Positions 33,049-64,000 of a DNA stretch of 64,000 nt are shown piece by piece. Source of the DNA: Tetradesmus obliquus (lineage: Eukaryota > Chlorophyta > Chlorophyceae > Sphaeropleales > Scenedesmaceae); contig CP126194.1 in NCBI GenBank assembly GCA_030272155.1, positions 5,385,501 to 5,449,500 of the forward strand, given 5' to 3'. The stretch's first letter is position 1; the number at the start of each line of letters is the position of its first letter. The position numbers and the translations under genes are program-made. The notes beneath the pieces are model-generated. The model was not told where the DNA came from, made no database searches, and was given only the letters and a program-made list of their open reading frames with translations.

Positions 33049-33569
33049 CAAGCGACCAGTAGGAATTTTAGCCGTGGTGAGTTTCCAGTGGCGATGCACC
33101 GCAACCCTTGCCAACCTGCATCCTGCACCCTGGACATTCGTATGGCTTTGAATTCATATATCAACATTTGACAAAGAGTGATAACAAAAATCAACTTTCA
33201 CGATGCACACCAAGCAGCTTCCTATATTGGGCCAGCCGGCACGCCGGACCGAACATTCGTCCGTAGCGACAGTTCGAAGGCCGCTCCCCTTGGCTACGCA
33301 TGTCTGTCCTAGGCAGGTGAAAACCTCACATGCTGGTTGGTGGAACGTACGGGAGAAAAGCGACCACTAGGAATTTTAGCGGTCCAGTGAGTTTCCAGTG
33401 GCGATGCACCGCAACCCTTGCCAACCTGCGGAGGACAGCAGCATATACAGCCACCGCTGCCATCTGCTGGCCCCACGCATTACGACACACATACAAGACG
33501 CCTATTTATACGGTGAAAACCTCACATGCTTGTTGGTGGAACGTACAGGAGAAAAGCGACCAGTAGGAA
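33049..33569 (-). repeat. Inverted, diverged satellite monomers with two LINE microfragments
   Basis: About 1.5 monomers of the same satellite as at 52,653-64,000, but in reverse orientation. Between 33,422 and 33,514 the monomer is broken by a piece resembling LINE endonuclease-region DNA (compare 48,948-48,976) joined to a piece of LINE 3' UTR (compare 36,522-36,555). Confidence 0.7.
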
Positions 33570-33830
33570 TTTTTTTTATTTTTTATTTTTTGAAGCAAGA
33601 ACGTTACAAGGGCTGACCTAAATAACTGTGCACTTGCTCCATAAAAAGATCCATTGAGAGAGTGAGGCAACCTGTTCCGCACTCACCCCACAGGTCTCTT
33701 GTTCCAAGAGACGCTGTCACACGATCATGCAGACAGCCCCGTGCAGGGCAGCCCCGAAAGGCATCCAGGACCTGACCGAGTGCCCAGACTCCACTAAAAT
33801 CACAGTCACGCGATGACGTCCTGTGATGTT

Positions 33831-40168: not shown

Positions 40169-40952
40169 GGATGCAGGTTGGCAAGGGTTGCGGTGCATCG
40201 CCACTGGAAACTTTTTTTTTCCACTGGAAACTCACTGGACCGCTAAAATTCCTACTGGTCGCTTTTCTCCCGTACGTTCCACCAACCAGCATGTGAGGTT
40301 TTCACCTGCCTAGGACAGACATGCGTAGCCAAGCGGAGCGGCCCTCAAAGCGCCGCTACGGGCGAATGTTCGGTCCGGCGTGCCGGCTGGCCCAATATAG
40401 GAAGCTTCTTGGTGTGCATCGTGAAAGTTGATATTTGTTTTTTTAACTCTTTGTAAAATGTTAATACATGAATTTTAAAGCCATACGAATGTCCAGGGTG
40501 CAGGATGCAGGTTGGCAAGGGTTGCGGTGCATCGCCACTGGAAACTCACTGGACCGCTAAAATTCCTACTGGTCGCTTTTCTCCCGTACGTTCCACCAAC
40601 CAGCATGTGAGGTTTTCACCTGCCTAGGACAGACATGCGTAGCCAAGCGGAGCGGCCCTCAAAGCGCCGCTACGGGCGAATGTTCGGTCCGGCGTGCCGG
40701 CTGGCCCAATATAGGAAGCTGCTTGGTGTGCATCGTGAAAGTTGATTTTTGTTATAACTCTTTGTAAAATGTTAATACATGAATTTTAAAGCCATACGAA
40801 TGTCCAGGGTGCAGGATGCAGGTTGGCAAGGGTTGCGGTGCATCGCCACTGGAAACTCACTGGACCGCTAAAATTCCTACTGGTCGCTTTTCTCCCGTAC
40901 GTTCCACCAACCAGCATGTGAGGTGTGCACCTGCCTAGGACAGACATGCGTA
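40169..40952 (+). repeat. Satellite block, about 2.5 monomers
   Basis: First monomer is the 331-bp type (CCACTGGAAAC, nine T, CCACTGGAAAC), followed by 311-bp monomers. Ends in the 11-bp target duplication of the next LINE insertion. Confidence 0.9.
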
Positions 40953-41346
40953 TTTTTTTTTTTTTTTTTTAAGCAAGAACGTTACAAGGGCTGACCTAAA
41001 TAACTGTGCACTTGCTCCATAAAAAGATCCATTGAGAGAGTGAGGCAACCTGTTCCGCACTCACTCCACAGGTCTCTTGTACCAAGAGACGCTGTCACAC
41101 GATCATGCAGACAGCCCCTTGCGGAGCAGCCCCGAAAGGCATCCAGGACCTGACCGAGTGCCCAGACTCCACTAAAATCACAGTCGCGCAATGACGTCCT
41201 GTGATGTGTGACATACCGTGACTGGCCCTTGAAACAAAATCTGTCCATGGCGTAACTGTCAGCTATCACTGCATGGTGACTTGTACACCTCTACAAGCTG
41301 CACTTTACAGGCAGCATTACGACACCTACACAAGACGCCTATTAAT
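40953..41346 (-). mobile_element. 394-bp LINE 3' end inserted in satellite, clean target duplication
   Basis: Poly(T) followed by the LINE 3' UTR up to GACGCCTATTAAT. AGACATGCGTA stands before (40,942-40,952) and after (41,347-41,357) the insertion, so the target duplication is 11 bp and the target was a satellite monomer. Confidence 0.92.
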
Positions 41347-41846
41347 AGACATGCGTAGCCAAGCGGAGCGGCCCTCAAAGCGCCGCTACGGGCGAATGTT
41401 CGGTCCGGCGTGCCGGCTGGCCCAATATAGGAAGCTGCTTGGTGTGCATCGTGAATGTTGATTTTTGTTATAACTCTTTGTAAAATGTTAATATATGAAT
41501 TTTAAAGCCATACGAATGTCCAGAGTGCAGGATGCAGGTTGGCAAGGGTTGCGGTGCATCGCCACTGGAAACTTTTTTTTTCCACTGGAAACTCACTGGA
41601 CCGCTAAAATCCGTACTGGTCGCTTTTCTGCCGTACGTTCCACCAACCAGCATGTGAGGTTTTCACCTGCCTAGGACAGACATGCGTAGCCAAGCGGAGC
41701 GGCCCTCACAGCGCCGCTACGGGCGAATTTTCGGTCCGGCCACTAAAATTCCTACTGGTCGCTTTTCTCCCGTACGTTCCACCAACCAGCATGTGAGGTT
41801 TTCACCTGCCTAGGACAGACATGCGTAGCCAAGGGGAGCGGCCCTC

Positions 41847-42137: not shown

Positions 42138-42165
42138 AAAGCGCCGCTACGGGCGAATGTTCGGT

Positions 42166-42220
42166 TTTTTTTTTTTGAAGCAAGATCGTTACAAGGGCTG
42201 ACCTAAATATCTGTGCACTT
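42166..42220 (-). mobile_element. 55-bp LINE tail insertion with 13-bp target duplication
   Basis: Poly(T) plus the last ~42 bp of the LINE. GCGAATGTTCGGT flanks it at 42,153-42,165 and 42,221-42,233. Confidence 0.9.
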
Positions 42221-42562
42221 GCGAATGTTCGGTCCGGCGTGCCGGCTGGCCCAATATAGGAAGCTGCTTGGTGTGCATCGTGAAGGTTGATTTTTGTTAT
42301 AACTCTTTGTATTTTTTTTTGTAAAATGTTGATATATGAATTTTAAAGCCATACGAATGTGCAGGGTGCAGGATGCAGGTTGGCAAGGGTTGCGGTGCAT
42401 CGCCACTGGAAACCGTTTTTTTTCCACTGGAAACTCACTGGACCGCTAAAATTCCTACTGGTCGCTTTTCTCCCGTACGTTCCACCAACCAGCATGTGAG
42501 GTTTTCACCTGCCTAGGACAGACATGCGTAGCCAAGCGGAGCGGCCCTCAAAGCGCCGCTAC

Positions 42563-42635
42563 AATGGATCTTTTTATGGAGCAAGTGCACAGTTATTTAG
42601 GTCAGCCCTTGTAACGATCTTGCTTTAAAAAAAAA
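42563..42635 (+). mobile_element. 73-bp LINE tail insertion, sense orientation, 13-bp target duplication
   Basis: AATGGATCTTTTTATGGAGC through the LINE 3' end and poly(A). AAAGCGCCGCTAC flanks it at 42,550-42,562 and 42,636-42,648. Confidence 0.9.
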
Positions 42636-43102
42636 AAAGCGCCGCTACGGGCGAATGTTCGGTCCGGCGTGCCGGCTGGCCCAATATAGGAAGCTTCTTG
42701 GTGTGCATCGTGAAAGTTGATTTTTGTTATAACTCTTTGTAAAATGTTAATACATGACTTTTAAAGCCATACGAATGTCCAGGGTGCAGGATGCAGGTTG
42801 GCAAGGGTTGCGGTGCATCGCCACTGGAAACTCACTGGACCGCTAAAATTCCTACTGGTCGCTTTTCTCCCGTACGTTCCACCAACCAGCATGTGAGGTT
42901 TTCACCTGCCTAGGACAGACATGCGTAGCCAAGCGGAGCGGCCCTCAAAGCGCCGCTACGGGCGAATTTTCGGTCCGGCGTGCCGGCTGGCCCAATATAG
43001 GAAGCTGCTTGGTGTGCATCGTGAATGTTGATTTTTGTTATAACTCTTTGTAAAATGTTAATATATGAATTGTAAAGCCATACGAATGTCCAGAGTGCAG
43101 GA

Positions 43103-49094: not shown

Positions 49095-50469
49095 TACAGC
49101 CGTTTTGTGCAGCGAGTGGCGCCAAGCTGGGAGTCAGCAAGTGCCAGGGCATGGAAGTGGGCACGCAGCAGCCGTTTGTAGGGGTAGATCCAGCCACGCA
49201 GATACCGTTCCATGATACAGCACTACACCCGATCAGGCACCTGGGTCTGCTGCTGTCAGCAGCAGGCGCAGAGCCGCATGCAGCAGCGCTGTACACGCAG
49301 CGCCTGCAAACCATCACATACCGGGCGCGGCAGTGGGCACGGCAGAATCTCAGCTATTTGGGGCGCTGCGCAGTTGCGCAGCAGATGATGGCATCTTGCA
49401 TCACCTATCATGCGCAGTTCGTGCCAGTCCCAGTAGATATCATGGCCAGGATGCACCGCCGCCTCTTAGGGTTTGTGACAGAGCAGGGCTGCGCTCGAGA
49501 AGCCAACATCCGGCAGTGGAATGAAAGCCCTCCGGCAGCAGTGGCCAGCCTGCCTTTCAGCATGGGCGGAATGAGGCAGGTTGATGTCAGGGCGCACGCC
49601 ACAGCAATGCAGGCACGTACAGCAGCAGCATTGCTGTCGCCGCGGCGAGCCCCATGGAAGGCCTTCATGCGGGCCAACCTGCGCCACGCACTGCCAGGAC
49701 TAGGGGAGGCAGCGTTGGTGCAGCGATCAAAGGCGCCGCTGCAGGCTGCCGCCAGGGGCGGCAGGCTGCCGCTGCGCCTATCAGCATACGTAGAGGCGCT
49801 GCAAAGCGTGGGCATTCACAGGCAAATCGAGCACAGCGCCATGACCAGCCAGCAGATCCAGCTTGAGCTACTAGTGGGGAACCACAGCGTGGGCAGCAGC
49901 TCAGATGGGCAGATGTTGGCAGCAGCCGGTGCCCTCCCTGCTCAGCTGCGCCACGGCGCAGGCACCACACTGGGGCAGGTGCAGCAGCAGCTAACTGGAC
50001 AGCCGCAGCAAGATGGCATTGTGCTGCCGCCGGCATGGCTGCACACTCTGCGGGAGGGCAGCACAGGTGCATGGCAGACCGACACGCAGCAACAGTGGGC
50101 ACAACAGTTGCAGCACGATGGCACCACCAAGTGCTACAAGGTGCAGCAGGATGGCAGCTTGAAGGCCACAACAGCTGTCCTAATGGACACAGCAGCCCTC
50201 CAATGGGCACCATGTTGTGTGGTAGATGTAACAGCAGTGCCGCACCCTGCATTTCAGCGGCAACAACAGCAGCGGCAGCAGCGGCAGCAGCAGCAGCAAC
50301 AGCGGCAGCAGCCAGCAGCACGGCAACAGCGGCAGCCACGACAGCAGCAACAACAGGAACGTCAGCAGCAGCAGCTGCAGCAGCCAGCTGCATGGCAACA
50401 GCAGCAGCCGCGACAGCAGCAACAACAGGAACGGCAGCAGCAGCAGCAGCAGCAGCAGCACCACCAGGG

Positions 50470-50526
<57 letters not shown>

Positions 50527-52652
50527 CCAAGGACAGCACCAGCAACAGCAGCAGCAGCAGCAATCGCGAAGCACGCCGTCATGGTACCTGGTGGGGGCTT
50601 GGGCAGACATTCGCGTAGATCCTAGTGTATGGGGGATGGGGTTTGCTGTCAGCTTGCTGCAGTTCACGCCAAAGGTGGCAACATGCAGGCTGCTGCAGGA
50701 GCAATGCAGTCGGCAGTGCAAAGAGGGATGGGTATCAGGTGTCGGCATGCGCCCGCGCCTGTGGCGCAACCGCCTGGGTGCTGAGGCGCCACAGGACGGC
50801 TTGCAGGAGATGGAGGCAGCTCAGAAACGGTCCTTCCAGCAAATGCAGCAAAATAGCGAGGCGCCTGGCAATCGTAGCAGCAGCAGCAGTGGCAGCCAGC
50901 GGTTTAGCGACGCAGCTATGATGGCGGCTTACCATGCGTCCTGGATGGATCCGTCCAGGGAGCGGGAGCTGCCAAGACAGCGCGCGGCAACAGCAGCAGC
51001 AGTAGTCACGGCTCAACGGCAGCAACAGGAGCAGCAACAGCAGCGCATCAGCTGCCCAGCACACAATGATCTACTGGACCCGATCACTCACTCCATGGGT
51101 GCTGCCAATACCAGGCAGCACCGCTGGGTGGCGAGTTATCAGCGGCTAAAAGACACCCAGCTGCCGAGGCGGCTGCGAGTGTTTGGCTGGCGGCTTCTGC
51201 ATGCAGGAGTGAAGGTAGGCGCACGGCGCATGCTGGCATCCAGCAGGCACGCGCCGGCTCACTTTACCTGCCCAGCACAGCAGTGCCAGCAGCCGCAGCA
51301 ACTGGAGACCCTCACCCACTTGTTAGTGGAGTGCCCTGTAGCTGCAGCAGCGTGGCAGTGGTACGCGCAACAGGTGTGGCAGCGTGTGCAGCCCGGAGCA
51401 GTGGTCCCTGTTAATAACAGCCGTCTGCTGCTGCTGGATGACTTCAGTGTGTGGGCGCCGCCAGCAGGGCAGCAACAGATGTGGACGCAGCTGCGTCTGC
51501 TGCTGCTGGAGTCCATTTGGGTGGTGCGCTGCAGCAGCATCAGGGCTGGCGTGATTGTGGCCAGTGCAGATGGCAGCGATGGCAGCGGCAGCCGCAATGC
51601 AGGCAGCAATTCTCAATTTCAGAGCCAAGGCATCAGCGATGCAGAGGACAGCAGCAGTTACAGCAGCAGCATGGGCAGTCAACGGGGTACAACTGGCGAG
51701 CCGGGCAGCTCATCATACGCTGCTAAGGCTGTGGCATGTAGGTTTCTGGCAGAGCTGCGGCAGCAAATTCAGAGGGAGTGGGATAGGGTGGAAGTAGATG
51801 TTAGGATAGGTTGTGGGATACCGTTTGCATGGCTGCAGGGAAGGTCGCCTGAGATCAAACTTGTTGACTTTGAGCAGAGGTGGGGAGCACTGTATAGGAT
51901 GGGCGCAAACGGGCGCATCAAGGTTCGGGCCAGCGCGGCTGGCATGTGAGGGATGGATTGGGCACGGGTCTACGAGGCGTGGTGGTCTGTTTTGACGGTT
52001 CGGGCAGGGTGTACAATGCATTCGTTGGAGTAGTGGCCGTCGTTCCTCGTTGTGATGTGTTGCAAAATAGTATGGCAAAGGCTAAGTTGATGGCCGGGAT
52101 ACGTTATGTTTGCATGTGAGTGGGTAGCAGAGTACGTTATGTATGCGTGCGTGTGGATAGCAGAGTACGAGGATGTGTGCAGCATGTGTGGATAAGTTTG
52201 TGTGTGTGTGGCTTTGTGTGCCTGAGGTGGTGTCATTTCCTGCAGAATGCCACATATCTCATAGGGGTGTGTTCGGTCAGTAGCAGGATGCGCTTTGCAT
52301 GAAGTGGAGAGTCAATGAATAGTCAGGTGGGGATTGTCTGTGTCGACAATCCGTCACCTATTAATAGGCGTCTTGTGTAGGTGTCGTAATGCTGCCTGTA
52401 AAGTGCAGCTTGTAGAGGTGTACAAGTCACCATGCAGTGATAGCTGACAGTTACGGTCCTGGATGCCTTTCGGGGCTGCTCCGCAAGGGGCTGTCTGCAT
52501 GATCGTGTGACAGCGTCTCTTGGTACAAGAGACCTGTGGAGTGAGTGCGGAACAGGTTGCCTCACTCTCTCAATGGATCTTTTTATGGAGCAAGTGCACA
52601 GTTATTTAGGTCAGCCCTTGTAACGTTCTTGCTTCAAAAAAAAAAAAAAAAA
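49095..52652 (+). mobile_element. L1-type LINE copy, sense orientation, 5'-truncated in RT
   Basis: Starts at GTACAGCCGTTTTGTGCAGC, which corresponds to position ~46,810 of the antisense copy, and runs through ORF2, 3' UTR and poly(A) at 52,636-52,652. The 3' UTR lacks ~110 bp present in other copies (GACAGTTACG joined to GTCCTGGATGCC near 52,456). Very similar to the antisense copy, differing mainly in CAG repeat lengths and scattered bases. Confidence 0.92.
49097..51949 (+). CDS. LINE ORF2 C-terminal two-thirds (no natural start)
   Basis: About 950 codons open, beginning within the RT thumb region (QPFCAASGAKLGVSKCQGME) directly after the catalytic HADD block, which is absent. It contains the poly-Gln linker, longer here than in the antisense copy (CAG run near 50,470-50,520), the zf-RVT-like region and the C-terminal domain ending KVRASAAGM. 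Without the polymerase core it cannot mobilise itself. Confidence 0.88.
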
Positions 52653-55600
52653 CCAGCATGTGAGGTTTTCACCTGCCTAGGACAGACATGCGTAGCCAAG
52701 GGGAGCGGCCCTCAAAGCGCCGCTACGGGCGAATGTTCGGTCCGGCGTGCCGGCTGGCCCAATATAGGAAGCTGCTTGGTGTGCATCGTGAAAGTTGATT
52801 TTTGTTATAACTCTTTGTAAAATGTTAATATATGAATTTTAAAGCCATACGAATGTGCAGGGTGCAGGATGCAGGTTGGCAAGGGTTGCGGTGCATCGCC
52901 ACTGTAAACTTTTTTTTTCCACTGGAAACTCACTGGACCGCTAAAATTCCTACTGGTCGCTTTTCTCCCGTACGTTCCACCAACCAGCATGTGAGGTTTT
53001 CACCTGCCTAGGACAGACATGCGTAGCCAAGCGGAGCGGCCCTCAAAGCGCCGCTACGGGCGAATGTTCGGTCCGGCGTGCCGGCTGGCCCAATATAGGA
53101 AGCTGCTTGGTGTGCATCGTGAAAGTTGATTTTTGTTATAACTCTTTGTAAAATGTTAATACATGAATTTTAAAGCCATACGAATGTCCAGGGTGCAGGA
53201 TGCAGGTTGGCAAGGGTTGCGGTGCATCGCCACTGGAAACTCACTGGACCGCTAAAATTCCTACTGGTCGCTTTTCTCCCGTACGTTCCACCAACCAGCA
53301 TGTGAGGTTTTCACCTGCCTAGGACAGACATGCGTAGCCAAGCGGAGCGGCCCTCAAAGCGCCGCTACGGGCGAATGTTCGGTCCGGCGTGCCGGCTGGC
53401 CCAATATAGGAAGCTGCTTGGTGTGCATCGTGAAAGTTGATTTTTGTTATAACTCTTTGTAAAATGTTAATACATGAATTTAAAAGCCATACGAATGTCC
53501 AGGGTGCAGGATGCAGGTTGGCAAGGGTTGCGGTGCATCGCCACTGGAAACTCACTGGACCGCTAAAATTCCTACTGGTCGCTTTTCTCCCGTACGTTCC
53601 ACCAACCAGCATGTGAGGTTTTCACCTGCCTAGGACAGACATGCGTAGCCAAGCGGAGCGGCCCTCAAAGCGCCGCTACGGGCGAATGTTCGGTCCGGCG
53701 TGCCGGCTGGCCCAATATAGGAAGCTGCTTGGTGTGCATCGTGAAAGTTGATTTTTGTTATAACTCTTTGTAAAATGTTAATACATGAATTTTAAAGCCA
53801 TACGAATGTCCAGGGTGCAGGATGCAGGTTGGCAAGGGTTGCGGTGCATCGCCACTGGAAACTCACTGGACCGCTAAAATTCCTACTGGTCGCTTTTCTC
53901 CCGTACGTTCCACCAACCAGCATGTGAGGTTTTCACCTGCCTAGGACAGACATGCGTAGCCAAGCGGAGCGGCCCTCAAAGCGCCGCTACGGGCGAATGT
54001 TCGGTCCGGCGTGCCGGCTGGCCCAATATAGGAAGCTGCTTGGTGTGCATCGTGAAAGTTGATTTTTGTTATAACTCTTTGTAAAATGTTAATACATGAA
54101 TTTAAAAGCCATACGAATGTCCAGGGTGCAGGATGCAGGTTGGCAAGGGTTGCGGTGCATCGCCACTGGAAACTCACTGGACCGCTAAAATTCCTACTGG
54201 TCGCTTTTCTCCCGTACGTTCCACCAACCAGCATGTGAGGTTTTCACCTGCCTAGGACAGACATGCGTAGCCAAGCGGAGCGGCCCTCAAAGCGCCGCTA
54301 CGGGCGAATGTTCGGTCCGGCGTGCCGGCTGGCCCAATATAGGAAGCTGCTTGGTGTGCATCGTGAAAGTTGATTTTTGTTATAACTCTTTGTAAAATGT
54401 TAATACATGAATTTAAAAGCCATACGAATGTCCAGGGTGCAGGATGCAGGTTGGCAAGGGTTGCGGTGCATCGCCACTGGAAACTCACTGGACCGCTAAA
54501 ATTCCTACTGGTCGCTTTTCTCCCGTACGTTCCACCAACCAGCATGTGAGGTTTTCACCTGCCTAGGACAGACATGCGTAGCCAAGCGGAGCGGCCCTCA
54601 AAGCGCCGCTACGGGCGAATGTTCGGTCCGGCGTGCCGGCTGGCCCAATATAGAAAGCTGCTTGGTGTGCATCGTGAAAGTTGATTTTTGTTATAACTCT
54701 TTGTAAAATGTTAATACATGAATTTAAAAGCCATACGAATGTCCAGGGTGCAGGATGCAGGTTGGCAAGGGTTGCGGTGCATCGCCACTGGAAACTCACT
54801 GGACCGCTAAAATTCCTACTGGTCGCTTTTCTCCCGTACGTTCCACCAACCAGCATGTGAGGTTTTCACCTGCCTAGGACAGACATGCGTAGCCAAGCGG
54901 AGCGGCCCTCAAAGCGCCGCTACGGGCGAATGTTCGGTCCGGCGTGCCAGCTGGCCCAATATAGAAAGCTGCTTGGTGTGCATCGTGAAAGTTGATTTTT
55001 GTTAGAACTCTTTGTAAAATGTTAATACATGAATTTTAAAGCCATACGAATGTCCAGGGTGCAGGATGCAGGTTGGCAAGGGTTGCGGTGCATCGCCACT
55101 GGAAACTCACTGGACCGCTAAAATTCCTACTGGTCGCTTTTCTCCCGTACGTTCCACCAACCAGCATGTAAGGTTTTCACCTGCCTAGGACAGACATGCG
55201 TAGCCAAGCGGAGCGGCCCTCAAAGCGCCGCTACGGGCGAATGTTCGGTCCGGCGTGCCGGCTGGCCCAATATAGAAAGCTGCTTGGTGTGCATCTTGAA
55301 AGTTGATTTTTGTTATAACTCTTTGTAAAATGTTAATACATGAATTTTAAAGCCATACGAATGTCCAGGGTGCAGGATGCAGGTTGGCAAGGGTTGCGGT
55401 GCATCGCCACTGGAAACTCACTGGACCGCTAAAGTTCCTACTGGTCGCTTTTCTCCCGTACGTTCCACCAACCAGCATGTGAGGTTTTCACCTGCCTAGG
55501 ACAGACATGCGTAGCCAAGCGGAGCGGCCCTCAAAGCGCCGCTACGGGCGAATGTTCGGTCCGGCGTGCCGGCTGGCCCAATATAGGAAGCTGCTTGGTG

Positions 55601-58600
55601 TGCATCGTGAAAGTTGATTTTTGTTATAACTCTTTGTAAAATGTTAATATATGAATTTTAAAGCCATACGAATGTCCAGTGTGCAGGATGCAGGTTGGCA
55701 AGGGTTGCGGTGCATCGCCACTGGAAACTTTTTTTTCCACTTGAAAACTCACTCGACCGCTGAAATTCCTACTGGTCGCTTTTCTCCCGTACGTTCCACC
55801 AACCAGCATGTGAGGTTTTCACCTGCCTAGGACAGACATGCGTAGCCAAGGGGAGCGGCCCTCAAAGCGCCGCTACGGGCGAATGTTCGGTCCGGCGTGC
55901 CGGCTGGCCCAATATAGGAAGCTGCTTGGTGTGCATCGTGAAAGTTGATTTCTGTTATAACTCTTTGTACAATGTTAATATATGAATTTTAAAGCCATAC
56001 GAATGTCCAGTGTGCAGGATGCAGGTTGGCAAGGGTTGCGGTGCATCGCCACTGGAAACTTTTTTTTCCACTTGAAAACTCACTCGACCGCTGAAATTCC
56101 TACTGGTCGCTTTTCTCCCGTACGTTCCACCAACCAGCATGTGAGGTTTTCACCTGCCTAGGACAGACATGCGTAGCCAAGGGGAGCGGCCCTCAAAGCG
56201 CCGCTACGGGCGAATGTTCGGTCCGGCGTGCCGGCTGGCCCAAAATAGGAAGCTGCTTGGTGTGCATCGTGAAAGTTGATTTTTGTTATAACTCTTTGTA
56301 AAATGTTAATATATGAATTTTAAAGGCATACGAATGTGCAGGGTGCAGGATGCAGGTTGGCAAGGGTTGCGGTGCATCGCCACTGTAAACTTTTTTTTTC
56401 CACTGGAAACTCACTGGACCGCTAAAATTCCTACTGGTCGCTTTTCTCCCGTACGTTCCACCAACCAGCATGTGAGGTTTTCACCTGCCTAGGACAGACA
56501 TGCGTAGCCAAGCGGAGCGGCCCTCAAAGCGCCGCTACGGGCGAATGTTCGGTCCGGCGTGCCGGCTGGCCCAATATAGGAAGCTGCTTGGTGTGCATCG
56601 TGAAAGTTGATTTTTGTTATAACTCTTTGTAAAATGTTAATACATGAATTTTAAAGCCATACGAATGTCCAGTGTGCAGGATGCAGGTTGGCAAGGGTTG
56701 CGGTGCATCGCCACTGGAAACTCACTGGACCGCTAAAATTCCTACTGGTCGCTTTTCTCCCGTACGTTCCACCAACCAGCATGTGAGGTTTTCACCTGCC
56801 TAGGACAGACATGCGTAGCCAAGCGGAGCGGCCCTCAAAGCGCCGCTACGGGCGAATGTTCGGTCCGGCGTGCCAGCTGGCCCAATATAGAAAGCTGCTT
56901 GGTGTGCATCGTGAAAGTTGATTTTTGTTAGAACTCTTTGTAAAATGTTAATACATGAATTTTAAAGCCATACGAATGTCCAGGGTGCAGGATGCAGGTT
57001 GGCAAGGGTTGCGGTGCATCGCCACTGGAAACTCACTGGACCGCTAAAATTCCTACTGGTCGCTTTTCTCCCGTACGTTCCACCAACCAGCATGTAAGGT
57101 TTTCACCTGCCTAGGACAGACATGCGTAGCCAAGCGGAGCGGCCCTCAAAGCGCCGCTACGGGCGAATGTTCGGTCCGGCGTGCCGGCTGGCCCAATATA
57201 GAAAGCTGCTTGGTGTGCATCTTGAAAGTTGATTTTTGTTATAACTCTTTGTAAAATGTTAATACATGAATTTTAAAGCCATACGAATGTCCAGGGTGCA
57301 GGATGCAGGTTGGCAAGGGTTGCGGTGCATCGCCACTGGAAACTCACTGGACCGCTAAAATTCCTACTGGTCGCTTTTCTCCCGTACGTTCCACCAACCA
57401 GCATGTGAGGTTTTCACCTGCCTAGGACAGACATGCGTAGCCAAGCGGAGCGGCCCTCAAAGCGCCGCTACGGGCGAATGTTCGGTCCGGCGTGCCGGCT
57501 GGCCCAATATAGGAAGCTGCTTGGTGTGCATCGTGAAAGTTGATTTTTGTTATAACTCTTTGTAAAATGTTAATACATGAATTTTAAAGGCATACGAATG
57601 TGCAGGGTGCAGGATGCAGGTTGGCAAGGGTTGCGGTGCATCGCCACTGGAAACTCACTGGACCGCTAAAATTCCTACTGGTCGCTTTTCTCCCGTACGT
57701 TCCACCAACCAGCATGTGAGGTTTTCACCTGCCTAGGACAGACATGCGTAGCCAAGCGGAGCGGCCCTCAAAGCGCCGCTACGGGCGAATGTTCGGTCCG
57801 GCGTGCCAGCTGGCCCAATATAGAAAGCTGCTTGGTGTGCATCGTGAAAGTTGATTTTTGTTAGAACTCTTTGTAAAATGTTAATACATGAATTTTAAAG
57901 CCATACGAATGTCCAGGGTGCAGGATGCAGGTTGGCAAGGGTTGCGGTGCATCGCCACTGGAAACTCACTGGACCGCTAAAATTCCTACTGGTCGCTTTT
58001 CTCCCGTACGTTCCACCAACCAGCATGTAAGGTTTTCACCTGCCTAGGACAGACATGCGTAGCCAAGCGGAGCGGCCCTCAAAGCGCCGCTACGGGCGAA
58101 TGTTCGGTCCGGCGTGCCGGCTGGCCCAATATAGAAAGCTGCTTGGTGTGCATCTTGAAAGTTGATTTTTGTTATAACTCTTTGTAAAATGTTAATACAT
58201 GAATTTTAAAGCCATACGAATGTCCAGGGTGCAGGATGCAGGTTGGCAAGGGTTGCGGTGCATCGCCACTGGAAACTCACTGGACCGCTAAAGTTCCTAC
58301 TGGTCGCTTTTCTCCCGTACGTTCCACCAACCAGCATGTGAGGTTTTCACCTGCCTAGGACAGACATGCGTAGCCAAGCGGAGCGGCCCTCAAAGCGCCG
58401 CTACGGGCGAATGTTCGGTCCGGCGTGCCGGCTGGCCCAATATAGGAAGCTGCTTGGTGTGCATCGTGAAAGTTGATTTTTGTTATAACTCTTTGTAAAA
58501 TGTTAATATATGAATTTTAAAGCCATACGAATGTCCAGTGTGCAGGATGCAGGTTGGCAAGGGTTGCGGTGCATCGCCACTGGAAACTTTTTTTTCCACT

Positions 58601-61600
58601 TGAAAACTCACTCGACCGCTGAAATTCCTACTGGTCGCTTTTCTCCCGTACGTTCCACCAACCAGCATGTGAGGTTTTCACCTGCCTAGGACAGACATGC
58701 GTAGCCAAGGGGAGCGGCCCTCAAAGCGCCGCTACGGGCGAATGTTCGGTCCGGCGTGCCGGCTGGCCCAATATAGGAAGCTGCTTGGTGTGCATCGTGA
58801 AAGTTGATTTCTGTTATAACTCTTTGTAAAATGTTAATATATGAATTTTAAAGCCATACGAATGTCCAGTGTGCAGGATGCAGGTTGGCAAGGGTTGCGG
58901 TGCATCGCCACTGGAAACTTTTTTTTCCACTTGAAAACTCACTCGACCGCTGAAATTCCTACTGGTCGCTTTTTCTCCCGTACGTTCCACCAACCAGCAT
59001 GTGAGGTTTTCACCTGCCTAGGACAGACATGCGTAGCCAAGGGGAGCGGCCCTCAAAGCGCCGCTACGGGCGAATGTTCGGTCCGGCGTGCCGGCTGGCC
59101 CAAAATAGGAAGCTGCTTGGTGTGCATCGTGAAAGTTGATTTTTGTTATAACTCTTTGTAAAATGTTAATATATGAATTTTAAAGGCATACGAATGTGCA
59201 GGGTGCAGGATGCAGGTTGGCAAGGGTTGCGGTGCATCGCCACTGTAAACTTTTTTTTTCCACTGGAAACTCACTGGACCGCTAAAATTCCTACTGGTCG
59301 CTTTTCTCCCGTACGTTCCACCAACCAGCATGTGAGGTTTTCACCTGCCTAGGACAGACATGCGTAGCCAAGCGGAGCGGCCCTCAAAGCGCCGCTACGG
59401 GCGAATGTTCGGTCCGGCGTGCCGGCTGGCCCAATATAGGAAGCTGCTTGGTGTGCATCGTGAAAGTTGATTTTTGTTATAACTCTTTGTAAAATGTTAA
59501 TACATGAATTTTAAAGCCATACGAATGTCCAGGGTGCAGGATGCAGGTTGGCAAGGGTTGCGGTGCATCGCCACTGGAAACTCACTGGACCGCTAAAATT
59601 CCTACTGGTCGCTTTTCTCCCGTACGTTCCACCAACCAGCATGTGAGGTTTTCACCTGCCTAGGACAGACATGCGTAGCCAAGCGGAGCGGCCCTCAAAG
59701 CGCCGCTACGGGCGAATGTTCGGTCCGGCGTGCCGGCTGGCCCAATATAGAAAGCTGCTTGGTGTGCATCTTGAAAGTTGATTTTTGTTATAACTCTTTG
59801 TAAAATGTTAATACATGAATTTTAAAGCCATACGAATGTCCAGGGTGCAGGATGCAGGTTGGCAAGGGTTGCGGTGCATCGCCACTGGAAACTCACTGGA
59901 CCGCTAAAATTCCTACTGGTCGCTTTTCTCCCGTACGTTCCACCAACCAGCATGTGAGGTTTTCACCTGCCTAGGACAGACATGCGTAGCCAAGCGGAGC
60001 GGCCCTCAAAGCGCCGCTACGGGCGAATGTTCGGTCCGGCGTGCCGGCTGGCCCAATATAGGAAGCTGCTTGGTGTGCATCGTGAAAGTTGATTTTTGTT
60101 ATAACTCTTTGTAAAATGTTAATATATGAATTTTAAAGCCATAGGAATGTCCAGTGTGCAGGATGCAGGTTGGCAAGGGTTGCGGTGCATCGCCACTGGA
60201 AACTTTTTTTTCCACTTGAAAACTCACTCGACCGCTGAAATTCCTATTGGTCGCTTTTCTCCCGTACGTTCCACCAACCAGCATGTGAGGTTTTCACCTG
60301 CCTAGGACAGAAATGCGTAGCCAAGGGGAGCGGCCCTCAAAGCGCCGCTACGGGCGAATGTTCGGTCCGGCGTGCCGGCTGGCCCAATATAGGAAGCTGC
60401 TTGGTGTGCATCGTGAAAGTTGATTTTTGTTATAACTCTTTGTAAAATGTTAATATATGAATTTTAAAGCCATACGAATGTCCAGGGTGCAGGATGCAGG
60501 TTGGCAAGGGTTGCGGTGCATCGCCACTGGAAACTTTTTTTTCCACTTGAAAACTCACTCGACCGCTGAAATTCCTACTGGTCGCTTTTCTCCCGTACGT
60601 TCCACCAACCAGCATGTGAGGTTTTCACCTGCCTAGGACAGACATGCGTAGCCAAGGGGAGCGGCCCTCAAAGCGCCGCTACGGGCGAATGTTCGGTCCG
60701 GCGTGCCGGCTGGCCCAATATAGGAAGCTGCTTGGTGTGCATCGTGAAAGTTGATTTTTGTTATAACTCTTTGTAAAATGTTAATATATGAATTTTAAAG
60801 CCATACGAATGTCCAGGGTGCAGGATGCAGGTTGGCAAGGGTTGCGGTGCATCGCCACTGGAAACTTTTTTTTCCACTTGAAAACTCACTCGACCGCTGA
60901 AATTCCTACTGGTCGCTTTTCTCCCGTACGTTCCACCAACCAGCATGTGAGGTTTTCACCTGCCTAGGACAGACATGCGTAGCCAAGGGGAGCGGCCCTC
61001 AAAGCGCCGCTACGGGCGAATGTTCGGTCCGGCGTGCCGGCTGGCCCAAAATAGGAAGCTGCTTGGTGTGCATCGTGAAAGTTGATTTTTGTTATAACTC
61101 TTTGTAAAATGTTAATATATGAATTTAAAGCCATACGAATGTGCAGGGTGCAGGATGCAGGTTGGCAAGGGTTGCGGTGCATCGCCACTGTAAACTTTTT
61201 TTTTCCACTGGAAACTCACTGGACCGCTAAAATTCCTACTGGTCGCTTTTCTCCCGTACGTTCCACCAACCAGCATGTGAGGTTTTCACCTGCCTAGGAC
61301 AGACATGCGTAGCCAAGCGGAGCGGCCCTCAAAGCGCCGCTACGGGCGAATGTTTGGTCCGGCGTGCCGGCTGGCCCAATATAGGAAGCTGCTTGGTGTG
61401 CATCGTGAAAGTTGATTTTTGTTATAACTCTTTGTAAAATGTTAATATATGAATTTTAAAGCCATACGAATGTCCAGGGTGCAGGATGCAGGTTGGCAAG
61501 GGTTGCGGTGCATCGCCACTGGAAACTTTTTTTTCCACTTGAAAACTCACTCGACCGCTGAAATTCCTATTGGTCGCTTTTCTCCCGTACGTTCCACCAA

Positions 61601-64000
61601 CCAGCATGTGAGGTTTTCACCTGCCTAGGACAGACATGCGTAGCCAAGGGGAGCGGCCCTCAAAGCGCCGCTACGGGCGAATGTTCGGTCCGGCGTGCCG
61701 GCTGGCCCAATATAGGAAGCTGCTTGGTGTGCATCGTGAAAGTTGATTTTTGTTATAACTCTTTGTAAAATGTTAATATATGAATTTTAAAGCCATACGA
61801 ATGTCCAGGGTGCAGGATGCAGGTTGGCAAGGGTTGCGGTGCATCGCCACTGGAAACTTTTTTTTCCACTTGAAAACTCACTCGACCGCTGAAATTCCTA
61901 CTGGTCGCTTTTCTCCCGTACGTTCCACCAACCAGCATGTGAGGTTTTCACCTGCCTAGGACAGACATGCGTAGCCAAGGGGAGCGGCCCTCAAAGCGCC
62001 GCTACGGGCGAATGTTCGGTCCGGCGTGCCGGCTGGCCCAATATAGGAAGCTGCTTGGTGTGCATCGTGAAAGTTGATTTCTGTTATAACTCTTTGTAAA
62101 ATGTTAATATATGAATTTTAAAGCCATACGAATGTCCAGTGTGCAGGATGCAGGTTGGCAAGGGTTGCGGTGCATCGCCACTGGAAACTTTTTTTTCCAC
62201 TTGAAAACTCACTCGACCGCTGAAATTCCTACTGGTCGCTTTTCTCCCGTACGTTCCACCAACCAGCATGTGAGGTTTTCACCTGCCTAGGACAGACATG
62301 CGTAGCCAAGGGGAGCGGCCCTCAAAGCGCCGCTACGGGCGAATGTTCGGTCCGGCGTGCCGGCTGGCCCAAAATAGGAAGCTGCTTGGTGTGCATCGTG
62401 AAAGTTGATTTTTGTTATAACTCTTTGTAAAATGTTAATATATGAATTTTAAAGGCATACGAATGTGCAGGGTGCAGGATGCAGGTTGGCAAGGGTTGCG
62501 GTGCATCGCCACTGTAAACTTTTTTTTTCCACTGGAAACTCACTGGACCGCTAAAATTCCTACTGGTCGCTTTTCTCCCGTACGTTCCACCAACCAGCAT
62601 GTGAGGTTTTCACCTGCCTAGGACAGACATGCGTAGCCAAGCGGAGCGGCCCTCAAAGCGCCGCTACGGGCGAATGTTCGGTCCGGCGTGCCGGCTGGCC
62701 CAATATAGGAAGCTGCTTGGTGTGCATCGTGAAAGTTGATTTTTGTTATAACTCTTTGTAAAATGTTAATACATGAATTTTAAAGCCATACGAATGTCCA
62801 GGGTGCAGGATGCAGGTTGGCAAGGGTTGCGGTGCATCGCCACTGGAAACTCACTGGACCGCTAAAATTCCTACTGGTCGCTTTTCTCCCGTACGTTCCA
62901 CCAACCAGCATGTGAGGTTTTCACCTGCCTAGGACAGACATGCGTAGCCAAGCGGAGCGGCCCTCAAAGCGCCGCTACGGGCGAATGTTCGGTCCGGCGT
63001 GCCGGCTGGCCCAATATAGAAAGCTGCTTGGTGTGCATCTTGAAAGTTGATTTTTGTTATAACTCTTTGTAAAATGTTAATACATGAATTTTAAAGCCAT
63101 ACGAATGTCCAGGGTGCAGGATGCAGGTTGGCAAGGGTTGCGGTGCATCGCCACTGGAAACTCACTGGACCGCTAAAATTCCTACTGGTCGCTTTTCTCC
63201 CGTACGTTCCACCAACCAGCATGTGAGGTTTTCACCTGCCTAGGACAGACATGCGTAGCCAAGGGGAGCGGCCCTCAAAGCGCCGCTACGGGCGAATGTT
63301 CGGTCCGGCGTGCCGGCTGGCCCAATATAGGAAGCTGCTTGGTGTGCATCGTGAAAGTTGATTTTTGTTATAACTCTTTGTAAAATGTTAATATATGAAT
63401 TTTAAAGCCATACGAATGTCCAGTGTGCAGGATGCAGGTTGGCAAGGGTTGCGGTGCATCGCCACTGGAAACTTTTTTTTCCACTTGAAAACTCACTCGA
63501 CCGCTGAAATTCCTACTGGTCGCTTTTCTCCCGTACGTTCCACCAACCAGCATGTGAGGTTTTCACCTGCCTAGGACAGACATGCGTAGCCAAGGGGAGC
63601 GGCCCTCAAAGCGCCGCTACGGGCGAATGTTCGGTCCGGCGTGCCGGCTGGCCCAAAATAGGAAGCTGCTTGGTGTGCATCGTGAAAGTTGATTTTTGTT
63701 ATAACTCTTTGTAAAATGTTAATATATGAATTTTAAAGGCATACGAATGTGCAGGGTGCAGGATGCAGGTTGGCAAGGGTTGCGGTGCATCGCCACTGTA
63801 AACTTTTTTTTTCCACTGGAAACTCACTGGACCGCTAAATTTCCTACTGGTCGCTTTTCTCCCGTACGTTCCACCAACCAGCATGTGAGGTTTTCACCTG
63901 CCTAGGACAGACATGCGTAGCCAAGCGGAGCGGCCCTCAAAGCGCCGCTACGGGCGAATGTTCGGTCCGGCGTGCCGGCTGGCCCAATATAGGAAGCTGC
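52653..64000 (+). repeat. Satellite array of 311/331-bp monomers with higher-order structure, continuing past the window
   Basis: About 35 head-to-tail monomers without interruption. Landmarks in order: GATGCAGGTTGGCAAGGG, CGGTGCATCGCCACTGGAAAC, CTACTGGTCGCTTTTCTCCC, CAACCAGCATGTGAGG, CCTAGGACAGACATGCG, CGGAGCGGCCCTCAAAGCG, TTCGGTCCGGCGTGCCGGC, AAGCTGCTTGGTGTGCATC, then an AT-rich part with TAACTCTTTGTAAAATG. Short monomers are 311 bp (for example 53,941, 54,252, 54,563); long ones 331 bp (for example 55,624, 55,955, 56,286). Monomer subtypes recur in blocks: diagnostic variants at 54,945-56,800 reappear 2,859 bp later, and those at 58,808-60,300 reappear 3,269 bp later. Neither monomer length is a multiple of three and the short frames inside are not conserved as protein. 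Confidence 0.96.

Follow-up and report, generated by a model that had tools for sequence, protein, structure and literature searches.

A probable bare LINE tail amplified within a chromosome-specific satellite of the green alga Tetradesmus obliquus

In the satellite CUS-TR24 of Cuscuta europaea, L1-CS LINEs (long interspersed nuclear elements) preferentially enter monomers at sites that resemble the cleavage site of mammalian L1, and the L1-CS ends are shifted by about 13-16 bp by target duplication, according to excerpts of that report (PMC8091179). A bare poly(T) insertion in exon 25 of human NF1 has been placed among L1-endonuclease-dependent insertions, its authors suggesting a processed pseudogene or else an Alu or L1 that had been severely truncated (PMC3219598, in the excerpted text), and the accessible portions of two further papers describe clusters of the L1-type LINEs Zepp and ZeppL at green algal centromeres (PMC8226300, PMC11005252). 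Here we describe a satellite array of Tetradesmus obliquus (assembly GCA_030272155.1) in which a subset of the monomers carries a bare T run between two copies of a short duplicated sequence. The array lies on contig CP126194.1 (hereafter C4), in a stretch of 64,000 nucleotides (forward-strand positions 5,385,501 to 5,449,500) that we call the window and whose internal positions are used below. We consider it probable that a bare LINE tail was inserted into a C4 monomer by the target-primed route and was then amplified with the satellite.

Structurally, the window holds 34 complete monomers between 52,899 and 63,792 (18 of 311 bp, 14 of 331 bp, one of 332 bp and one of 330 bp, all cut at the GGTGCATCG anchor), and the difference between a long and a short monomer consists of the T run plus a second 11-12-mer. 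Long monomers come in two types, each with 20 additional bp: L9, which reads CCACTGTAAAC-T9-CCACTGGAAAC, and L8, which reads CCACTGGAAAC-T8-CCACTTGAAAAC. A preliminary description of this DNA had reported the 20-bp difference, the T run between duplicated 11-mers and the two subfamilies with nine and eight T, all of which the 34 monomers bear out; the 11-mer is moreover single in every short monomer of the window (18/18). Junction matches with at most three mismatches number 20 in the window, versus 0.00 in shuffles. The undiverged form, CCACTGGAAAC-T9-CCACTGGAAAC, has two exact matches in the whole genome (104.66 Mb in 17 contigs), at 40,201 and 41,562, both with a perfect duplication and a pure T9, and these copies, together with a variant that carries CG-T8 between the 11-mers, sit upstream of the array in older satellite full of LINEs. 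We give the target-site duplication around the C4 T run as 11-12 bp: the 11-mer is natively followed by T, which makes a duplication of 11 bp with T9 indistinguishable from one of 12 bp with T8. By eye, a weak 11-bp quasi-repeat, CCACTGGAAAC/TCACTGGACCG, is present at the native site, and the C4 insert, a T8-9 run without a body, contains no recognizable LINE sequence.

Across the genome, a gapped pattern of the C4 alleles detected 88 long junctions, all of them on C4 between 5.4257 and 5.5135 Mb and on the plus strand, with none on the other strand and none for the reversed control; the pattern holds C4 alleles only, could not detect a LINE body at the nick, and misses at least two junctions (one at window position 42,403 and one at C4:5,514,096). 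These 88 junctions comprise 49 L8, 28 L9, two undiverged copies and nine mixtures or length variants. The exact short pattern gave 97 matches, 34 of which are the right half of long junctions, leaving 63 short ones. Array matches reach about 5.514 Mb on C4, with LINE interruptions in the pieces read. Neighboring monomers follow an ordered S-L8-L9 pattern, S being the short form: S followed by L8 (18 pairs), L8 by L9 (21) and L9 by S (13) are frequent, and S followed by L9 (2), L8 by S (2) and L9 by L8 (7) are rare. The proposed amplification into at least two subfamilies is supported by L8 and L9.

Homologous satellites, about 80% alike, are present on C15, C13, C8, C3 and C1, and further satellites on C10 and C6 are about 93% like that of C3. 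In the pieces fetched, none of the 172 junctions that could be aligned through on C1, C3, C8, C13 and C15 has the C4 insertion (157 are plain short, 11 have a LINE insertion of C1's own, three have a 24-bp duplication on C15 and one is LINE-disrupted), a count that excludes junctions BLAST failed to align through. The insertion is also absent from the 17 junctions read on C6 and the nine read on C10, all of which are short, so that among the sites read it is present on C4 only. The window further contains a relic satellite (Table 1), which reads TTCGAA, the C4 plus-strand copies reading CTCAAA or CTCACA (71/71) and most outgroup copies TTCGA. The relic was compared with seven outgroup monomers at the 15 columns in which these are fixed, three of the columns being present in both relic copies; of the resulting 18 cells, 15 have the C4 base and three the outgroup base. 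Two of the three are firm and belong to the TTCGAA reading; the third adjoins a small gap, and there the C4 base is found in the other relic copy. An outgroup-like relic overall was therefore rejected, and from its bases we place it as an early C4 branch. Since the outgroup junctions lack it and the C4 relic is short, the C4 insertion is derived and not ancestral, and the polarity from short to long proposed earlier is upheld by empty outgroup sites as well as by the short relic.

Trees were built from 88 of 95 rows in the first and, with the insert left out, 81 of 95 in the second, after removal of rows with LINE or long runs in their flanks and of long branches, and the first five distinct rows per contig served as outgroup. 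In the tree of 81 rows, the outgroup is separated by one branch (support 100/100), little signal is left within C4, and the long state needs two changes. Bootstrap trees group the long monomers as one in 3% of cases and the short ones in 17%, and a single-clade constraint is rejected for neither (p-AU 0.47 for long, 0.40 for short). The base at -67 is C in 27 of 28 short C4 monomers, T in all 32 long ones and T in 18 of 21 outgroup rows; the short C4 monomers thus have a derived base of their own, and the long monomers do not appear to be nested in them. The expectation of a single clade of long monomers with its root among short ones was consequently not borne out (3% of bootstrap trees; base at -67): the tree does not resolve such a clade and the -67 base favors sister lineages. 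On this evidence, a short ancestor appears to have given rise to long and short monomers as sister lineages, between which recombinants exist. Short monomers with L9 or L8 flank bases occur at 57,644, 56,711 and 63,151, and mixed long alleles occur too; such mosaics could be explained by crossing-over or by loss of 20 bp between the two 11-mers, and we infer that the mixed alleles are recombinants. Recombinants between long and short weaken the scar as a clean lineage marker, so that, of its proposed role in tracing satellite expansion, the amplification with the satellite stands and the clean marker does not.

Breaks between satellite pieces were catalogued in 35 rows (lengths partly by eye), which represent about 33 distinct events once a duplicate row on C4 and one row for a site shared by C3 and C6 are subtracted. 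Nearly all are LINE copies or bare tails, with LINE copies in both orientations and duplications of 7-17 bp. The body between tail and duplication grades down from more than 1 kb to a few bases and then to none, passing through 64 and 44 nt in the window, 18 nt on C6 and 17 nt on C3; the shortest bodies are GAAGCAAATAA (11 nt) and TTCTTGCTTC (10 nt) on C1, TCTTGCTTC (9 nt) and TTGCTTC (7 nt) on C15, and GAAGCAA (7 nt) on C6. By our own reading of the catalogue, tail and duplication are separated by no more than 11 nt in eight of the about 33 distinct events, the insertion at C3 phase 109 and the 13-bp form on C15 not being counted among these eight. An association of copy number with insert length was tried (16 events of at most 60 bp versus 19 longer ones; one-sided p 0.019, Spearman p 0.068) and set aside because of biased sampling and the relatedness of some rows.

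Similar scars on other chromosomes suggest that the event occurred more than once. On C6, at a site that differs from that of the C4 scar, T11, T10 and TTTTTATTTTT (3 copies) lie with nothing else between 11-bp duplications AAATTCCTACT, and on C4 itself a T-rich 18-mer flanked on either side by GATGCAG occurs in two plain copies and in two that contain a LINE. At C1 phase 6 (4.51-4.54 Mb), six bases from the C4 nick, the amplified insertion consists of only GAAGCAAATAA plus tail (35-41 bp) in a 13-bp duplication TGCACCGCCACTA, with 25 junctions; its A-interrupted tail differs among copies, and four LINEs of about 1.7 or 2.65 kb have the same left junction. At C15 phase 277, five inserts that include LINE bases (47-48 bp) and four that are T-rich (13 bp) have a common 14-bp duplication (with one mismatch in the bare form). 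On C3, T10-11GAA (three copies) and bare forms (six) have a 15-bp duplication in common with T16-17GAAGCAA on C6 (four copies; one mismatch); the bare form on C3 was dropped as an independent tail-only event, given the 7-nt body at the same site and duplication on C6.

The primer end at the nick was compared with random positions treated alike for 29 other insertions, hand-picked from the catalogue: 13 of them have TT (expectation 5.3, p 0.0007) and 19 have T (expectation 12.4, p 0.011). Duplications shorter than 7 bp, rearranged events, C15 phase 151-157, C6 phase 170, C3 phase 109, the LINE inside the T-rich insert of C4 and the C4 site itself were left out of this set. Nicks common to several contigs are apparent insertion hotspots: C1 and C13 have LINE copies of 413 and 555 bp at one nick at phase 245 (ATGTTGATTT|ATCA), and phase 58 is common to C3 and C10, with C4 using phase 59.

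Mechanistically, a LINE of the type common at the locus would have made a nick in a C4 satellite monomer, after CCACTGGAAAC(T). Reverse transcription would have been primed on the poly(A) tail, with only about 8-9 tail bases copied before second-strand completion, and the outcome, judging from the structure, would be a bare T run flanked by a target duplication of 11-12 bp. The inserted monomer would then have been amplified with the satellite while diverging into L8 and L9, and recombination with uninserted monomers may have produced the ordered S-L8-L9 pattern. We infer both that the tail derives from a LINE transcript and that copying stopped within it.

Several observations weigh against this scenario. 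The C4 insert has no LINE letter by which its donor RNA could be named; the C4 site ends in CT, so that a T is present and the preferred TT is absent; and a single origin is not shown by the monomer tree. Plain duplication does happen at the C4 site, because the 24-bp tandem duplication on C15, which is T-free and found at three junctions, occurred exactly there. Bare runs can also be secondary, since C15 phase 277 and the C3/C6 site have longer forms with the same duplication, so that the one on C4 may have started out longer.

This last point leads to the best of the alternatives, albeit an unlikely one, namely that a LINE copy with a short body was inserted and the body lost later, with tail and duplication remaining. 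Bare and body-bearing inserts in a common duplication, 14 bp at C15 phase 277 and 15 bp at the C3/C6 site, speak for such a loss, as does the left junction common to the 25 short inserts and four LINEs at C1 phase 6, but the C4 pieces fetched show no LINE body following any T run at phase 12, and the undiverged copies carry a pure T9. At about 5,463,655 on C4, a truncated LINE end directly borders an L8-type T run on its left side and the left half of the monomer junction is missing; this LINE lies opposite to the expected body side, and we read the arrangement as a later deletion. More improbable is a slippage or break-repair event that duplicated the 11-mer locally, with later expansion of a T filler and without reverse transcription, a scenario that would leave unexplained the T run on the LINE-tail strand, the parallel C6 scar at another site and the graded LINE series, even though the quasi-repeat at the native site and the plain duplication at the same site on C15 favor it. 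Least probable of all is a tail from another polyadenylated RNA (mRNA or a short interspersed nuclear element, SINE) with the LINE enzyme acting in trans, for although a bare tail has no identity and the NF1 authors allowed an Alu, an L1 or a processed pseudogene (PMC3219598, as excerpted), the duplicated-site inserts with a body, where read, resemble this LINE. A target-primed insertion of a bare LINE tail thus remains our preferred reading; of the earlier proposal of a LINE insertion truncated to its tail, the target-primed insertion at one site holds, and the insert could have been tail-only from the start or have decayed to that state.

Around the array, the three LINE copies cited in the preliminary description are real, with duplications of 11, 13 and 13 bp. 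The 1699-aa LINE frame matches RVT_1 with an E-value of 1.1e-28 (100.8 bits versus a cut-off of 29.6), Exo_endo_phos at E 3.8e-4 (20.7 bits, short of its 24.5-bit cut-off) and zf-RVT below the cut-off, and the poly(A) of the partial LINE copy that follows adjoins the array. The 50 matches listed for the LINE 3' end are confined to one region on each of four contigs (40/944 candidates scored). The genome also has 52 matches to the chlorophyll a/b-binding domain, as would suit a photosynthetic eukaryote; in the control, one of 14 genomes, a cyanobacterium, gave matches.

Table 1 Satellite and LINE features of the window (positions within the 64,000-nucleotide stretch).
Feature	Position	Strand	Details
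Relic satellite	33050..33573	-	both aligned junctions short; T at -67
Undiverged form CCACTGGAAAC-T9-CCACTGGAAAC, copy 1	40201..40231	+	older satellite
LINE copy, poly(T) left	40942..41357	-	394 bp between 11-bp duplications 40942-40952 / 41347-41357
Undiverged form CCACTGGAAAC-T9-CCACTGGAAAC, copy 2	41562..41592	+	older satellite
LINE copy truncated to 55 bp including tail	42153..42233	-	13-bp duplication
Lone T9 in degenerate monomer	42305..42328	+	CTTTGTA T9 GTAAAATG; at most 6 bp duplicated
Variant CCACTGGAAAC CG-T8 CCACTGGAAAC	42403..42434	+	older satellite
LINE copy truncated to 73 bp including tail	42550..42648	+	13-bp duplication
LINE reading frame, 1699 aa	43986..49085	-	profile matches RVT_1, Exo_endo_phos, zf-RVT
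Second LINE copy, partial	49151..52650	+	start approximate; no RT (reverse transcriptase) match; zf-RVT below cut-off
Satellite array, 311/331-bp monomers	52651..64000	+	extends past window edge
First L9 junction	52899..52929	+	CCACTGTAAAC 52899-52909, T9 52910-52918, CCACTGGAAAC 52919-52929
Further L9 starts	56380, 59240, 61185, 62509, 63793	+	
First L8 junction	55718..55748	+	CCACTGGAAAC T8 CCACTTGAAAAC
Further L8 starts	56049, 58577, 58908, 60193, 60524, 60855, 61516, 61847, 62178, 63462	+	

The lone T9 in a degenerate monomer corresponds to phase 232, where C4 LINE insertions occur elsewhere, and may reflect either slippage or a tail insertion. Two other contigs show larger repeated units: at 3.20-3.27 Mb on C10, a regular 1706-bp unit, satellite monomers with a 972-bp LINE piece, is repeated about 30 times among the matches listed, and at 3.18-3.19 Mb on C6, a single higher-order pattern repeats five distinct LINE-type insertions, of about 10 to 232 bp, as a set.

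An insertion without element sequence is still recognizable here because tandem satellites offer hundreds of known empty sites, and the shortest products of LINE insertion, usually hard to spot, become countable. The C4 scar suggests that such products can seed satellite subfamilies. A broader proposal, which we regard as doubtful and offer only tentatively, is that tail-only or near tail-only reverse transcription might be a major outcome for this LINE, and that short scars might be preferentially amplified, because they barely lengthen the monomer, and so repeatedly supply variants for chromosome-specific higher-order satellite patterns.

Compared with the described systems, the locus resembles L1-CS in CUS-TR24 in that a LINE lineage inserts into satellite monomers with target duplication, but the sites mapped there, in the excerpted account, are those of full-length elements, and no amplified tail-only scar is described in that account. 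The NF1 poly(T) insertion, as excerpted, differs in being a single event in a gene, without tandem amplification. With Zepp and ZeppL, as portrayed in the accessible portions of those papers, the locus has in common a clustering of LINEs, here putatively L1-type and seen from their location, whereas the LINE of T. obliquus lies within chromosome-specific satellites of ~312 bp. No title listed in the open library searched concerns the amplification of tail-only scars in satellites. There are separate precedents for a bare poly(T) insertion and for LINEs within satellites, and what looks new is the amplification of bare-tail scars as satellite subfamilies.

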